This document shows, piece by piece, positions 22,095 to 46,608 of a DNA stretch of 64,000 bases; position 1 is the stretch's first letter; each line of letters begins with the position of its first letter. The position numbers and the translations under genes are program-made. The notes below the pieces were generated by a model, which searched no databases, was not told the DNA's origin, and worked only from the letters and a program-made list of their open reading frames with translations. The DNA is from Pigmentiphaga kullae. GTDB lineage: Bacteria > Pseudomonadota > Gammaproteobacteria > Burkholderiales > Burkholderiaceae_B. Location: the NCBI RefSeq assembly GCF_004216695.1, contig NZ_SGXC01000002.1:1550001-1614000 (forward strand), written 5' to 3'.

Positions 22095-23276
22095 TCAGGC
22101 CTCTCTTCCGGCGCCAACCGCCCGTGACAGGGCCTTGACAAGATCGGTTTGCGTGATGATACCGGCCAGCGTGCGTTCCTCGTCGATGACGGGAATGTGG
22201 TGATGGCCGCCGTCGGCGAACAGCGGGATCAGCTCGATCACGTAGCGGCTCGCGCTGACCACCCGGACATGGCGGGTCATGATCTGCGCAATGACCCGGG
22301 GGCGCCCGCCGCCGCCCGGCGCCAGGCCGATCAGCGCGCGCAGCCGTCCGCCCCATCCTTCGGGCTGGTCCATCTCCAGCTGCCGCATGAAATCGGCCAC
22401 CGTCACGATGCCCACCACGCCGCGGGCCTGGTCGATCACCGGCAGCGCCTTGATCCGATGCTGGCGCATCAGGGCCCAGGCCTCCTTGAGCGGCATGTTC
22501 TGCGTGGCGCTGAGCGGCTCGCGCGTCATGATGTCGCGGCAGCGCAGTTCGCCCAGGCTGCGCCGGTAGGCGGCCATTTCCGCATGATGCAGCAGGTTCT
22601 CCAGGTCGTCGGGGCTGACGTCCAGCACCTGGTTGTAGTGCGCCAGCGCGGCATCCAGGTCGGCCGCGGTGAAGCGGGACCGGGGGCCGGGCACGGGCTT
22701 GGCCTGCGCGTGGGGATAGCGGCGTCCGGTCAGGCTGTTGTAGGCCAGGCCGGCCATGATCAGCAGCACCGAATTGGCCAGCACCGGGAACAGCGCGTAG
22801 CGGTAGTCCGCGGCCTGGGCCAGCACAGCGGTCAGGGCGGCGGCGCCGCCCGGCGGATGCAGGCAGCGCAGCGACAGCATCACCACGATGGCGCCCCCCA
22901 CCGCCAGGGCGGCCGCCGGCACCGGATCGCCGATCAGGTTGACGCAAATGATGCCCACCAGCGCCGACAGCGTGTTTCCGCCGATGACCGACCAGGGCTG
23001 GGCCAGCGGGCTGGCCGGCAGGGCGAACACCAGCACCGCGCTCGCGCCCAGCGGCGCGACCATCCACGCGGCGCTCCCCAGGCTGCCGGCCATCGTCCGG
23101 CTCGCCCAGGCGGCCAGCAGGACGCCGGCCAGGGCGCCCAGCACGATGCGCAGGCGCTCCCGTCCGTTGATGCGCATGCGGCCCGGCCGGAAGGAAGCCA
23201 GCCAGGAACGCAGCGTGGCAAGGGAGAAACCGGGAAGCGACGCGCAAACCCGGGAGGCAGCGGAACGATCGGACAT
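22095..23276 (-). CDS. HPP family membrane protein with two CBS domains
   Basis: A 393-residue protein. The first half is an HPP transmembrane domain of four or more helices bearing 'LRCLHPPGGAAALTAVL', which gives the family its name. The second half has two CBS domains, 'CRDIMTREPLSATQNMPLKE' and 'IAQIMTRHVRVVSASRYVIE', which usually bind adenine nucleotides. HPP proteins have been linked to nitrite or other anion transport in some organisms; here the role is open. It is divergent from nemA and ends 147 nt before the start of the EAL gene. Confidence 0.85.
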   Translation of the reverse strand: MSDRSAASRVCASLPGFSLATLRSWLASFRPGRMRINGRERLRIVLGALAGVLLAAWASRTMAGSLGSAAWMVAPLGASAVLVFALPASPLAQPWSVIGGNTLSALVGIICVNLIGDPVPAAALAVGGAIVVMLSLRCLHPPGGAAALTAVLAQAADYRYALFPVLANSVLLIMAGLAYNSLTGRRYPHAQAKPVPGPRSRFTAADLDAALAHYNQVLDVSPDDLENLLHHAEMAAYRRSLGELRCRDIMTREPLSATQNMPLKEAWALMRQHRIKALPVIDQARGVVGIVTVADFMRQLEMDQPEGWGGRLRALIGLAPGGGGRPRVIAQIMTRHVRVVSASRYVIELIPLFADGGHHHIPVIDEERTLAGIITQTDLVKALSRAVGAGREA

Positions 23277-23386
23277 TGGAACGACGGCGACAACGGCACG
23301 GCAGACGGAGACCAGCCGGGCATAGTACCGGATTGCCGGGCGTCACCGCCGCCGGATAACCCCTCTGGCACCACGGGCATGAGCAT

Positions 23387-23428
23387 ATATCGTCATTTAA
23401 CGATATAAGATTCGCGATTCATCGATAT
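23387..23428 (+). promoter_or_regulatory. Three-half-site operator and -10 region upstream of nemA
   Basis: ATATCG (23387-23392), 8 nt, CGATAT (23401-23406), 16 nt, CGATAT (23423-23428). The first two form a perfect 8-bp inverted repeat TATATCGT/ACGATATA with a 6-nt gap. TAAGAT (23406-23411) is a likely -10. The same spacing occurs upstream of the arsR gene at 45750-45791, pointing to one shared regulator. Confidence 0.75.
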
Positions 23429-23459
23429 ATTTCGCCTCCCCGCCTAGCCAGGATTCTCT

Positions 23460-24569
23460 ATGACCACGCTGTACGACCCCATCACCGTCGGCGACCTGCA
23501 GCTCGCCAACCGCATCGTCATGGCCCCGCTGACCCGCAACCGGTCGCCGCGCGCCGTACCCCTGCCCGTCACGGCCACCTATTACAGCCAGCGCGCCAGC
23601 GCCGGCCTGCTGATCACGGAAGCCACGGCCATCAGCCACCAGGGCCAGGGCTATGCCGACGTGCCCGGCCTGTATTCGGAAGAACAACTGGCCGGCTGGC
23701 GGCGCGTGACCGACGCGGTCCACGCCGCGGGCGGCAAGATCGTCGTCCAGCTCTGGCACGTGGGCCGGATCTCGCATACCTCGCTGCAGCCCGGCGGCGG
23801 CGCGCCGGTGGCACCCTCGGCCATCCGGGCCAACGCCAAGACCTACCTGATCGGGCCGGACGGAGGCGGCTTCGCCCCGACTTCCGAACCTCGCGCGCTG
23901 CGGCTCGACGAGCTGCCCGGCATCGTCGCCGACTACCGGCGCGCCGCCCGCGCCGCCATCGAAGCCGGCTTCGACGGCGTCGAACTGCACGCCGCCAACG
24001 GCTACCTGATCGACCAGTTCCTGCGTTCGGGCAGCAACCATCGCGACGACGCCTATGGCGGCTCGATCGAGAACCGGGCGCGCCTGCTGACGCAAGTGCT
24101 GGACGCCATCACCGACGAAATCGGGGCCGGCCGCACGGGCATCCGCATCTCGCCCGTCACGCCCGCCAACGACGCCTCGGATCCGGAGCCCCAGCCCCTG
24201 TTCGACTACGTGGTGCGCAAGCTGGCCGGCTACGGGCTGGCCTACGTCCACGTCATCGAGGGCGCGACGGGCGGCGCCCGCGACTACCGCCAGGGCGACG
24301 CGCCGTTCGACTACGCCGCGCTGAAAGCGGCCTACGCCCAGGCCGGCGGCCGGGGCGCGTGGATGACCAACAACGGCTACGACCGCGCGGCCGCCGAGCA
24401 GGCGGTCGCCAGCGGGGCCGCGGATCTCGTGGCTTTCGGCAAGCTGTTCATCGCCAATCCGGACCTCGTGCGGCGCCTGCGCGAACAGGCGCCGCTCAAT
24501 GCGCCGGACAACGCCACGTTCTACGGCGGCACGGAAAAAGGGTACATCGACTACCCGGCACTGGCCTGA
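23460..24569 (+). CDS. nemA: Old yellow enzyme family ene-reductase (N-ethylmaleimide reductase type)
   Basis: FMN-dependent NADPH ene-reductase of 369 residues that reduces activated C=C bonds and some nitro compounds, used against electrophiles. Family landmarks: 'NRIVMAPLTRNRSP', 'VVQLWHVGRISHTSLQPGG', the substrate-binding His/Asn pair in 'GFDGVELHAANGYLIDQFLR', and 'DAYGGSIENRARLL'. AGGA lies 7 nt before the ATG. It is a single gene with an operator-like array upstream and a hairpin terminator downstream. No regulator is adjacent; the ArsR at 45817 is the predicted one. Confidence 0.88.
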   Translation: MTTLYDPITVGDLQLANRIVMAPLTRNRSPRAVPLPVTATYYSQRASAGLLITEATAISHQGQGYADVPGLYSEEQLAGWRRVTDAVHAAGGKIVVQLWHVGRISHTSLQPGGGAPVAPSAIRANAKTYLIGPDGGGFAPTSEPRALRLDELPGIVADYRRAARAAIEAGFDGVELHAANGYLIDQFLRSGSNHRDDAYGGSIENRARLLTQVLDAITDEIGAGRTGIRISPVTPANDASDPEPQPLFDYVVRKLAGYGLAYVHVIEGATGGARDYRQGDAPFDYAALKAAYAQAGGRGAWMTNNGYDRAAAEQAVASGAADLVAFGKLFIANPDLVRRLREQAPLNAPDNATFYGGTEKGYIDYPALA

Positions 24570-43454: not shown

Positions 43455-44072
43455 CTACGGATTCCCTCCTGGCCCCGGTTCCAGGCTCGCCTGCGCCAGG
43501 CGCGCGAACTCGACCACCGAAGTGCTGCCTATCTTCTCGGAAATATGGGCGCGATGGGTTTCGACGGTGCGCGGAGACAGCTCCAGCGCGGCGGCGATCT
43601 CCTTGGTCGCGTAGCCCTGCGCCACCAGGACCAGCACCTCGCGCTCGCGCTCGGTCAGGCGCGCGAGCAGCGCGCGCTGCTCGTCCTGTTCGCGATAGCG
43701 TGCCAGCGCGGCGAAGGCGGCGTTGACCGCCTCCATCAGCACGTGCTCGTCCACCGGCTTGCTCAGGAAATCCACCGCGCCCGCCTTGAAGGCACGCCGG
43801 CATGCCTGCATGTCGCCATGGCCGGTCAGCAGGACGATGGGCCAGCCGCAGCCCGACTCCTGGAGCTTCTGCTGCAGTTGCAGGCCCGTGATGGCGGGCA
43901 TGCGCAGGTCCAGCACGATGCAGCCCGGCTCCAGCTCGGGCTGGCGGGACAGGAAATCCAGCGGGTGGGCGAAAGTCTCCACGCGCAGGCCATACGTGGA
44001 CAGCAGCAGCGCCACCGCGTCGCGCACGGCGCGGTCGTCGTCGACCAGATAGACGGGAGGTTGGGAAGTCAC
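43455..44072 (-). CDS. FixJ/LuxR-type response regulator
   Basis: A 205-residue two-component regulator. The receiver domain has 'VYLVDDDRAVRDAVALLL', the phospho-acceptor Asp in 'CIVLDLRMPAITG', Thr in 'VLLTGHGD' and Lys in 'FLSKPVDEH'. The C-terminal LuxR HTH is 'LTEREREVLVLVAQGYATKE' and 'LSPRTVETHRAHISEKI'. The GTG start at 44072 overlaps the kinase stop (GTGA) with GGAG upstream. It resembles FixJ/TodT/StyR-type regulators. Confidence 0.9.
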   Translation of the reverse strand: MTSQPPVYLVDDDRAVRDAVALLLSTYGLRVETFAHPLDFLSRQPELEPGCIVLDLRMPAITGLQLQQKLQESGCGWPIVLLTGHGDMQACRRAFKAGAVDFLSKPVDEHVLMEAVNAAFAALARYREQDEQRALLARLTEREREVLVLVAQGYATKEIAAALELSPRTVETHRAHISEKIGSTSVVEFARLAQASLEPGPGGNP

Positions 44073-45676
44073 GCCATGGGCTCCTGCGAAGGTTTCCGGC
44101 CGCGGGCCAGCGGCAGCAGCACGGTGAACCGCGCGCCGCCCTCGGGCCGGTTGGCCGCCGAGATGCTGCCGTCGAAATGGTGGACGATGCTTTCGCAGAT
44201 GGCCAGCCCCAGCCCCATGCCGTCCTCCTTGTCGGAACGGAAGGGCTCGAAGACGTGCGCCAGCATGCCGGGCGCCACCCCCGGGCCGTCGTCGTCGACC
44301 ACGATGCGCGCCATGCCGTCGGCTTGATCGATGTGCAGCACGATGCGCCGGCGGTCCTCGGGCACCGCCGCCAGGGCGTCGGCGGCATTGCGGATCAGGT
44401 TGTGCATGACCTGCCCCGCCTGCACCCGGTCCACCCACGCGACGGGCGGCGGCACGGCCACCTCCGTATCGAGGCGCACGCCGCGCGCCGACAGGTCCGC
44501 CCCCATCAGCGCCACCATGTCGGCGGCGACCTCGCCCAGGTCGCAGGCCTGCGCCGCGGGCGGGTCGGCGCCGACGTAGGCGCGCATGCGAGCCAGGATG
44601 TCCGCGGCCCGGCGGGCCTGCTGCACGTTGGACTCCAGCACGCGGCGCATGGCGTCGGGCAGGTCGCCGGACAGATCGGCCAGGCGCAGCGCTGCCTGGC
44701 TCTGGCTCAGCAGCGCGGTCAGCGGCTGGTTCAATTCGTGCGCGATGCCCGAGGCCATTTCCCCCATCGCATTGACCCGCGCCGCGTGCGCCAGGGTGGC
44801 TTCCTGCTTGCTGAGCCGCCCCGCCTGGCGGGCCCGCTCGGCCTCGCCCCGGGCCTGGACGGCGCGGCGCCGCTGCACCGCCAGCAAGGCCGCCAGCGCC
44901 AGCAGGGCCAGGGAGACCAGCACCAGCAATGCCAGCGGCCTGCCCAGCGCCAGGTCCCCCCATCCCGGATGCCGGGACAGGCGCAGCATGATGGGCTGGC
45001 CGGCATTCTCCAGCATGCGCACCGCCGCCATGGCCGGCGGATGCAGCCCCTGCCCCGGCGGGACCGCGCCATGGTCGATCCGGGCCGCCGCGCCATCCAG
45101 GCGCAGGGCCAGCCGCGTCCCCATGGGCAATTCATCGGCGGCGACCAGCTCCGTCAAGTCCACGGTCAGCACCAGCGCCAGTTGGCCCGCGGCGGGCGGC
45201 AATCGCTTGACCAGCAGATAGCGGGACTGGCCGGCCTGCGGCACCGTGCTGACCGGCCGCCCGGGCTGGGCCGTCGCGATCACCGGGCCCAGGCGTTGCG
45301 GTTCAAGAGGCGGGAGGCCCGACCGGCGGCTGGACACCAGCGTATGCCAGCCGGACGGGGACGAGGTGTTCTCCCAGCCGACCAGGTCCACCGCCTCGAT
45401 GCGGGGATAGAACGCGCGGATCGCGCCCGCCACCTGCCCGATCTCGTCGAGCAGGATGCGATCGGATCGCTGCGCCAGCGCCGCCATGCTGGTCAGGTGG
45501 GCGTCATGCTGCGCGATGCGCTGCGACACGAGACCGGCCACGGCATCGGCCGCGCCGTCCAGGTCCGCGCGCAGCCGGTCCAGGGCCTGTCGATACAGCA
45601 AGACGGCGCCGGCCAGCGCCAGCACCAGCCAGGCCCCCGCCAGAACGGCGGCCAGCGCGGATTGACGTTTCATCAT
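44069..45676 (-). CDS. Sensor histidine kinase with periplasmic sensor domain
   Basis: A 535-residue membrane kinase: one helix at residues 10-28, a periplasmic domain to about residue 255, a second helix ('LALLVLVSLALLALAALLAV'), then HisKA with the phospho-His in 'MASGIAHELNQPLTALLSQS' and an ATPase domain ('MHNLIRNAADALAAV', 'VDDDGPGV', 'GMGLGLAICESIV'). The DctB/FixL-like layout fits the partner FixJ-type regulator. Start is one of two adjacent ATGs (45676 or 45673) with no clear ribosome site; the open frame upstream runs through the arsR promoter. Confidence 0.88.
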   Translation of the reverse strand: MMKRQSALAAVLAGAWLVLALAGAVLLYRQALDRLRADLDGAADAVAGLVSQRIAQHDAHLTSMAALAQRSDRILLDEIGQVAGAIRAFYPRIEAVDLVGWENTSSPSGWHTLVSSRRSGLPPLEPQRLGPVIATAQPGRPVSTVPQAGQSRYLLVKRLPPAAGQLALVLTVDLTELVAADELPMGTRLALRLDGAAARIDHGAVPPGQGLHPPAMAAVRMLENAGQPIMLRLSRHPGWGDLALGRPLALLVLVSLALLALAALLAVQRRRAVQARGEAERARQAGRLSKQEATLAHAARVNAMGEMASGIAHELNQPLTALLSQSQAALRLADLSGDLPDAMRRVLESNVQQARRAADILARMRAYVGADPPAAQACDLGEVAADMVALMGADLSARGVRLDTEVAVPPPVAWVDRVQAGQVMHNLIRNAADALAAVPEDRRRIVLHIDQADGMARIVVDDDGPGVAPGMLAHVFEPFRSDKEDGMGLGLAICESIVHHFDGSISAANRPEGGARFTVLLPLARGRKPSQEPMA

Positions 45677-45749
45677 GGATGCAGATAGTACTTGCAGGCG
45701 CCCGGTCGCGCCCTCCCCGACGTACCGGGATCTCCCTGTACCGGGGGGC

Positions 45750-45791
45750 ATATCGGATATAGGCGATCTATAATTCGATCCATGGCGATAT
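45750..45791 (+). promoter_or_regulatory. arsR promoter with three-half-site operator matching that of nemA
   Basis: ATATCG (45750-45755), 8 nt, CGATCT (45764-45769), 16 nt, CGATAT (45786-45791). TATAAT (45769-45774) is a perfect -10, aligned with TAAGAT in the nemA promoter, and ATTCG at 45773-45777 is also aligned. The half-site spacing is identical to 23387-23428. Confidence 0.75.
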
Positions 45792-45816: not shown

Positions 45817-46107
45817 ATGGACCTCGACGCCACCATCAAGGCGCTGGCGCATCCGGCGCGGCGCGACATCCTGCAATGGCTCAAGGAGCCGGAACGCCAT
45901 TTCGCCGGGCAGGAACATCCGCTGGAAGTCGGCGTCTGCGCCGGCATGTTCGAACGCTGCGGCCTGTCCCAGTCGACCGTGTCGGCCCATCTGGCCACCC
46001 TGCAGCGCGCCGGTCTCGTCACGACCCGGCGCATCGGACAATGGGTGTTCTACAAACGCAATGAAGAGGCCATCGCCCAGTTGGTCGACCAGCTCCGGGA
46101 GCTGTGA
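45817..46107 (+). CDS. ArsR-family repressor, predicted regulator of nemA
   Basis: A 96-residue winged-helix repressor: 'IKALAHPARRDILQWLK', recognition helix 'CGLSQSTVSAHLATLQRAG', wing 'LVTTRRIGQWVFYKRNE'. The classic ELCVCDL metal site is absent. Cys41 and Cys48 ('VGVCAGMFERCG') flank the start of the HTH and could sense thiol-reactive electrophiles or oxidants. Its promoter shares a precise operator layout with nemA 22 kb away. It is divergent from the histidine kinase. Confidence 0.88.
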   Translation: MDLDATIKALAHPARRDILQWLKEPERHFAGQEHPLEVGVCAGMFERCGLSQSTVSAHLATLQRAGLVTTRRIGQWVFYKRNEEAIAQLVDQLREL

Positions 46108-46386: not shown

Positions 46387-46608
46387 ATGAAGAAGACCCT
46401 GCTCCTGGCCTCGCTGCTGGCAATCGCTCTGTCGGCTTGCGGCAAGAAGGAAGAAGCTGCTCCGGCCCCGGCCGAATCGACTCCTCCGGCCGTCACCACC
46501 CCGGCTGAGCCCGCGCCCGCCCCGGCCGAGCCCGCTGCTCCGGCCCCCGCCGAGCCCGCCGCTCCTGCCGACCAGGCCCCCGCCGCCCCGGCTCCGGCCC
46601 AGCAGTAA
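46387..46608 (+). CDS. Small Ala/Pro-rich lipoprotein
   Basis: A 73-residue protein with a lipoprotein signal and lipobox LSAC (Cys 18). After a short 'GKKEEAAPAP' segment it consists of Ala/Pro/Glu repeats ('APAPAEPAAPAPAEPAAPAD'). It is probably an extended spacer anchored in the outer membrane. AAAGGAAAAGAG precedes the ATG and a strong terminator follows, suggesting an abundant monocistronic mRNA. Function unknown. Confidence 0.85.
   Translation: MKKTLLLASLLAIALSACGKKEEAAPAPAESTPPAVTTPAEPAPAPAEPAAPAPAEPAAPADQAPAAPAPAQQ

Follow-up and report, generated by a model that had tools for sequence, protein, structure and literature searches.

Tandem operators at arsR and at a distant nemA point to a split ene-reductase switch under ArsR-family control in Pigmentiphaga kullae

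In Pigmentiphaga kullae, the regulator gene arsR and the old-yellow-enzyme (OYE) gene nemA lie 22 kb apart within the 64,000-nucleotide stretch of DNA that we analysed (hereafter the window), and each promoter carries a copy of the same tandem operator. Very probably, the two genes are parts of one detoxification switch that has been split in this lineage with its wiring kept. With a probability of about 0.8, we consider that ArsR is a PyeR/CyeR-like repressor that senses through Cys41 and governs both arsR and the distant nemA by way of the tandem operators, and that NemA reduces the electrophile. In near relatives the pair mostly forms one unit behind one operator; comparison of the loci at the sequence level shows that in this lineage the genes stand apart with an operator at each promoter.

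The arsR gene (45817-46107, plus strand) encodes a 96-residue winged-helix regulator with cysteines at positions 41 and 48, which profiles, an AlphaFold2 model, and Foldseek searches place in the ArsR/SmtB family; both HTH_20 (5.7e-10) and HTH_5 (9.1e-8) scored over the cut-off. The nemA gene (23460-24569, plus strand) encodes a 369-residue OYE-type alkene/N-ethylmaleimide reductase. Profile searches assigned it to this class (Oxidored_FMN PF00724, 7.5e-78; PRK10605, 402.6 bits, just under the cut-off of 403), and no other gene in the genome gave a match as good as E <= 1e-60.

The initial annotation had placed the two 42-bp sites correctly, at 45750-45791 for arsR (ATATCG-N8-CGATCT-N16-CGATAT) and at 23387-23428 for nemA (ATATCG-N8-CGATAT-N16-CGATAT), both on the plus strand, but its count of three half-sites has to be revised to four, which form a tandem pair of 20-bp palindromes spaced 22 bp apart. 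The ATTCG that it had noticed in both sites is indeed present in the two sequences and is in fact the left half of palindrome 2. Written as a consensus, the first palindrome is ATATCG-N8-CGATMT and the second RATTCG-N8-CGATAT, with a period of 22 bp and 2 bp between them. In full, the arsR operator consists of ATATCG-N8-CGATCT (45750-45769), 2 bp, and AATTCG-N8-CGATAT (45772-45791), the latter lying 22 bp downstream of palindrome 1 and holding the half-site that had gone uncounted. The nemA operator consists of ATATCG-N8-CGATAT (23387-23406), which is a perfect palindrome, 2 bp, and GATTCG-N8-CGATAT (23409-23428); all four palindromes are given on the plus strand. The 22-bp period is about two helical turns and would fit two ArsR dimers on one face of the helix. 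Between the arsR palindromes stands TATAAT (45769-45774, plus strand), and in the same register at nemA stands TAAGAT (23406-23411, plus strand). Their equal placement, described before, is plain in the sequence, whereas their role as -10 elements is a candidate assignment made from position, since a sigma-70 consensus scan called neither promoter. That scan gave nothing at nemA and only an unrelated candidate (45662-45689) at arsR, and at neither promoter did it give a -35 box fitting the candidate -10 elements.

When up to three mismatches were allowed, the operator pattern occurred at only two places in the window (four matches over both strands), against an expectation of 0.03 from 100 shuffles. 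Scanning the whole 6,220,214-bp genome with up to two mismatches returned the arsR and nemA sites only, while the reversed-pattern control gave 0 matches. Many unrelated occurrences of the pattern, named at the outset as evidence against the proposal, are thus not what the genome scan found. A single palindrome with up to two mismatches was present at 77 places in the genome versus 27 for the reversed control; among the places listed, it was perfect at nemA only and had one mismatch at arsR and at three places on contig C1.

As a second measure of specificity, we used a sequence-only profile, R1, made from 34 operators; the 11 genomes that belong to the window's genus contributed none of these, nor did Bordetella, where the nearest relatives in named genomes are found. 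On the window's genome, where scoring covered 150 of the 321 first-look candidates and E-values are rough, the only matches up to E 10 among the candidates scored were the promoters of arsR (45750-45791, 2.6e-7) and nemA (23386-23429, 5.1e-5). No additional tandem operator was found in this genome by either the pattern scan or R1. Across 61 related genomes, with at most 104 candidates scored in each and sites assigned by comparing their positions with those of the arsR and nemA matches, R1 detected 19 distinct sites at E <= 0.01, of which 12 were just upstream of arsR and seven just upstream of nemA. Seven weaker sites had E-values of 0.027-0.096, one of them at nemA of genome G004. The profile is incomplete, as it gave no match in G006 although arsR there has a perfect first palindrome and the third half-site.

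Whether arsR and nemA adjoin in related genomes, a check suggested at the outset, was examined next. The ArsR search of named genomes yielded at least 583 matches, and among the best 80 of these, which are the nearest relatives by design, an OYE gene was located just downstream of arsR at every locus (80/80), starting within about 1.4 kb of it; one locus, L124, is cut by a contig end. The gene types compared across these loci were arsR and OYE, and the loci include Bordetella, Azoarcus, Rhizobium, Sinorhizobium, Mesorhizobium, Pseudomonas, Massilia, and Cupriavidus. At some loci a transporter gene separates the two, being of the MFS type in L092 (by Pfam) and in an annotated Rhizobium leguminosarum plasmid. 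For six plasmid-borne homologues, an alkene reductase gene adjoined in two, L194 (upstream) and L196, and none was found within 2.5 kb in L191, L192, L193, or L195 (46-50% identity; L195 by annotation only).

The operator was then followed through 94 arsR homologues (the 80 named-genome relatives and 14 from the 61-genome search) with an ungapped 44-column profile fitted to the 200 bp before each gene. The best score of 470 shuffled sequences was exceeded by 90 of the 94 upstream regions, a figure that describes these loci, because the profile was trained on them. Of the 90 scored sites, 80 had WTCG at position +24 and 79 had CGAT at position +36, and the columns of palindrome 2 were about as conserved as those of palindrome 1. 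The four regions below threshold were L155, whose site overlaps the start codon and was clipped by the 200-bp region used; L104, where the arrangement is a different one; L148, which is also without Cys41; and L010, the arsR of G004, which begins some 35 bp after the apparent end of the upstream gene as judged by eye. In G004, a split relative, the operator is missing at arsR while nemA keeps the first palindrome, so that autoregulation is not universal. We also observed that the operators of L137 and L148, the two homologues with Ser instead of Cys41, rank with the most degenerate in the set of 94, with the OYE gene still linked. Separately, the homologue on a Staphylococcus hominis plasmid (L192, 46% identity) has ATATCG-N8-CGATTT, overlapped by TTGACA, shortly before its start (L192:2440-2500), and the site may therefore reach the Firmicutes. 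A published description of the tandem operator was not found among the listed titles and abstract openings of the open literature; a comparable site may be on record in the papers on PyeR or CyeR.

The 11 genus genomes are a subset of the 61 searched for both genes, and in eight of them (G000, G002, G003, G004, G005, G007, G008, and G009) arsR and nemA are apart. In six of these split genomes both genes are on one contig and share their direction, with nemA 12-62 kb upstream of arsR. Of the 23 positions of the tandem operator, seven of the eight genomes matched 22-23 at the nemA promoter, and G004 matched 17, with the first palindrome only. In the remaining three genus genomes, G010 has nemA about 0.5 kb after arsR with just 10 of 23 positions matched upstream of nemA, and in G001 and G006 the OYE that comes after arsR has 48-49% identity. 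Two further genomes, G019 and G021, encode a NemA that is 78-80% identical, with an upstream region that matches at just 10-12 of 23 operator positions; neither has an ArsR of the window's clade, family matches reaching at most 41% in G021 and G019 having the paralogous clade only (57%).

A simple insertion is the less fitting account of the split, since nemA should then still lie downstream of arsR and lack an operator. Tandem duplication, after which each copy lost one of its two genes, would fit better. Four flanking genes were of no help in tracing the original position of the pair; over the 105 loci searched, they had matches in the genus genomes only. On the arsR side, a sensor histidine kinase gene (44069-45676, minus strand) starts about 74 bp from the operator and might share arsR control; among the loci searched, it adjoins arsR in six split genus genomes only. 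Downstream of arsR there is a short Pro/Ala-rich open reading frame with a lipoprotein-like start (46387-46608, plus strand). On the nemA side, a gene for an HPP-transmembrane/CBS-domain protein (22095-23276, minus strand) starts about 110 bp from the operator and adjoins nemA in seven of the eight split genomes, the window's own included.

Taken together, the comparisons strongly support the proposal that ArsR controls nemA in trans, and support control of its own gene, because the OYE linkage holds at all 80 loci, R1 is restricted to the two promoters, and the split genomes keep the operator, or its first palindrome, at nemA.

What ArsR might sense was approached through its fold and cysteines. 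The AlphaFold2 model (mean pLDDT 91.4) has Cys41 just before a helix at residues 42-48, and the recognition helix of the model is likely residues 52-64. As the initial annotation had maintained, the classic metal site is missing: GVC stands in place of the helix-3 CxC found in metal sensors such as ArsR, CadC, and SmtB, and Cys41 is the only conserved cysteine. It is kept in 92 of 94 homologues, the exceptions being L137 and L148, where it is Ser, and in 21 of 21 of a second set, seven of which belong to a paralogous clade. In 18 of the 94, Cys41 is the sole cysteine of the protein. With Cys41 in 92 of 94 homologues, thiol sensing by ArsR is plausible. The earlier pairing of Cys41 with Cys48 was accurate for this protein, which contains both, but does not hold as a defining pair: Cys48 is present in 70 of 94 homologues, and its absence from 24 led us to reject it as the defining sensor residue. 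Sorted by the linked OYE, Cys48 was observed in 60 of 61 homologues when that enzyme shared 60% identity or more with the window NemA, in two of 25 when identity was lower, and in eight of eight split genomes. The 60% line was set after the data had been viewed, and the sequences are not independent by descent, so we read this as a correlation rather than a test. The persulfide sensors SqrR, BigR, and HlyU have two cysteines, one on helix 2 and one on the last helix. We rejected this type, as the only cysteines here are Cys41 and Cys48 and the BigR model NF040642 gave 40.7 against a cut-off of 155.

That redox-sensing ArsR regulators control OYEs is already known from PyeR-PyeM-XenB and CyeR-Cye1. 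According to the available excerpt of PMC7950407, the PA4354-PA4355-xenB genes of Pseudomonas aeruginosa form a single operon that encodes the ArsR-family autorepressor PyeR and a xenobiotic reductase of the OYE type, and pyeRM-xenB is induced by HOCl, protects against HOCl, goes down with HOSCN, and is also regulated by MexT. With HOCl and HOSCN acting in opposite directions and MexT in co-control, more than a simple thiol switch may be at work. The window resembles this system in that the ArsR gene is linked to an OYE in all 80 relatives, although in the window itself only through the operator. An operator is present at arsR's own promoter, where autorepression would be predicted. The window differs in that its OYE is 22 kb off and has a separate copy of the operator, in that no transporter gene intervenes, and in that its ArsR has Cys48, which is found at none of 11 Pseudomonas loci. 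The homologues of P. nitroreducens and P. delhiensis are 68-69% identical to the window ArsR; the P. nitroreducens locus (L158, 68%) has arsR, an MFS-like open reading frame (judged by eye), the OYE gene, and, further on, feoB, which is the gene order of PAO1, and it carries the tandem operator.

In Corynebacterium glutamicum, the ArsR-type CyeR controls the OYE Cye1 under oxidative stress, and its inactivation relies on one cysteine equivalent to RexT Cys41, a second cysteine being seven residues away (PMC8960804, in the part available). The Cys41-Cys48 spacing is that of the CyeR pair, with the equivalence of Cys41 suggested by position. CyeR is actinobacterial and is likened to the window ArsR by its published description; the one actinobacterial homologue examined (L191, Embleya, 50% identity) has GVC and no Cys48, and no OYE was found within 2.5 kb of it. 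RexT of Nostoc is described in the same paper as an ArsR-fold thiol sensor with a reactive Cys41 on helix 3; its signal is H2O2, its target is thioredoxin, and its disulfide joins Cys40 and Cys41 (PMC8960804). Such a disulfide is impossible in the window protein. Three of the 94 homologues, all from Massilia (L143, L156, and L157), have adjacent Cys41-Cys42. RexT (7txo) was itself a weak Foldseek match to our model (E 1e-3, rank 50). The NemA ene-reductase of Escherichia coli is repressed by NemR, which answers electrophiles and reactive chlorine; NemR is a TetR-family protein, in contrast to the ArsR-family regulator of the window.

It is rather unlikely that the regulation in trans is right and the signal is different, either a metal(loid) bound through Cys41/Cys48 or a small ligand, with a NemA substrate that is not an electrophile. 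The protein does score 69.5 bits with the metalloregulator subfamily model NF033788 (curated cut-off 55), the best Foldseek matches to its model are ArsR (6j05), SrnR, and HlyU, the first of them As(III)-responsive, and, by our own reading of the available portion of PMC10509353, Cys41 falls near the place of the helix-3 CxC in a large ArsR group. Against a metal(loid) stands the single conserved cysteine, which as the sole cysteine of 18 of 94 homologues leaves too few thiols for a three-thiol As(III) site, and the linked gene is a reductase at all 80 loci.

The shared palindrome could instead be the site of another regulator of both promoters, with arsR merely a target, an idea to which we give very little credence. 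Its attraction comes from a second ArsR clade (seven loci, L033-L039, 54-58% identical), in which a palindrome of the same type precedes arsR at five of seven loci and a neighbouring zinc-type dehydrogenase gene at five of seven; this gene was found by its start motif at six of the seven (L033 and L035-L039) and checked by Pfam in L035. The site is consequently not unique to the window ArsR, yet these palindromes too adjoin ArsR paralogues of the same family. Moreover, nemA has the operator where ArsR sits apart and is without it in G019 and G021, which have a similar NemA and no ArsR of this clade. The paralogous ArsR and its dehydrogenase look like a second reductase switch. Other ArsR matches in the window's genome are at most 38% identical, that is, the paralogous clade is absent, and cross-talk is not expected there. 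Barely credible, finally, is a likeness that arose by chance or a nemA site left over, without function, from an old operon promoter. Window shuffles, genome scan, and R1 make chance very unlikely. Both promoters could descend from a single operon promoter, but a relic would be expected to decay, and 22-23 of 23 positions are kept in seven of eight split genomes while spacer bases vary.

We therefore retain control of both genes by a Cys41-sensing ArsR and hypothesize the following sequence of events. The repressor, PyeR/CyeR-like and without the classic metal site, would bind as two dimers to the two tandem palindromes on the same helix face, as sequence conservation suggests. These dimers would cover the -10 region of the arsR promoter and that of the nemA promoter 22 kb off, and thereby repress both genes. 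An electrophile or oxidant would react with the conserved Cys41, which lies immediately ahead of the helix in front of the recognition helix, and the DNA would be released; Cys48 may form a resolving disulfide in the subclass to which the window protein belongs. With arsR and nemA derepressed, NemA would reduce the electrophile, as the activity of its family predicts.

This analysis adds the split pair, the tandem operator across alpha-, beta-, and gammaproteobacteria, and the correlation of Cys48 with the OYE. The operator is precise and testable, and it applies to widespread, little-studied ArsR regulators of ene-reductases, whose roles in P. aeruginosa are still called unclear in the available part of PMC10134825. 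The locus offers a natural case of an operon that was divided into a two-promoter regulon with its control sites kept, and the Cys48/OYE correlation indicates which homologues to compare for one-cysteine versus two-cysteine ArsR sensors. More tentatively, and as a possibility that we would not call probable, these proteins may be proteobacterium-wide ArsR thiol sensors with one essential cysteine and a double-dimer operator, in which Cys48 has co-diversified with the reductase class and the pairing of sensor and enzyme survives even a split. If this is true, NemA-like enzymes would go with two-cysteine sensors and XenB-like enzymes with one-cysteine or neighbouring-cysteine sensors, and the chemistry of the sensor would be matched to the substrates of the enzyme.
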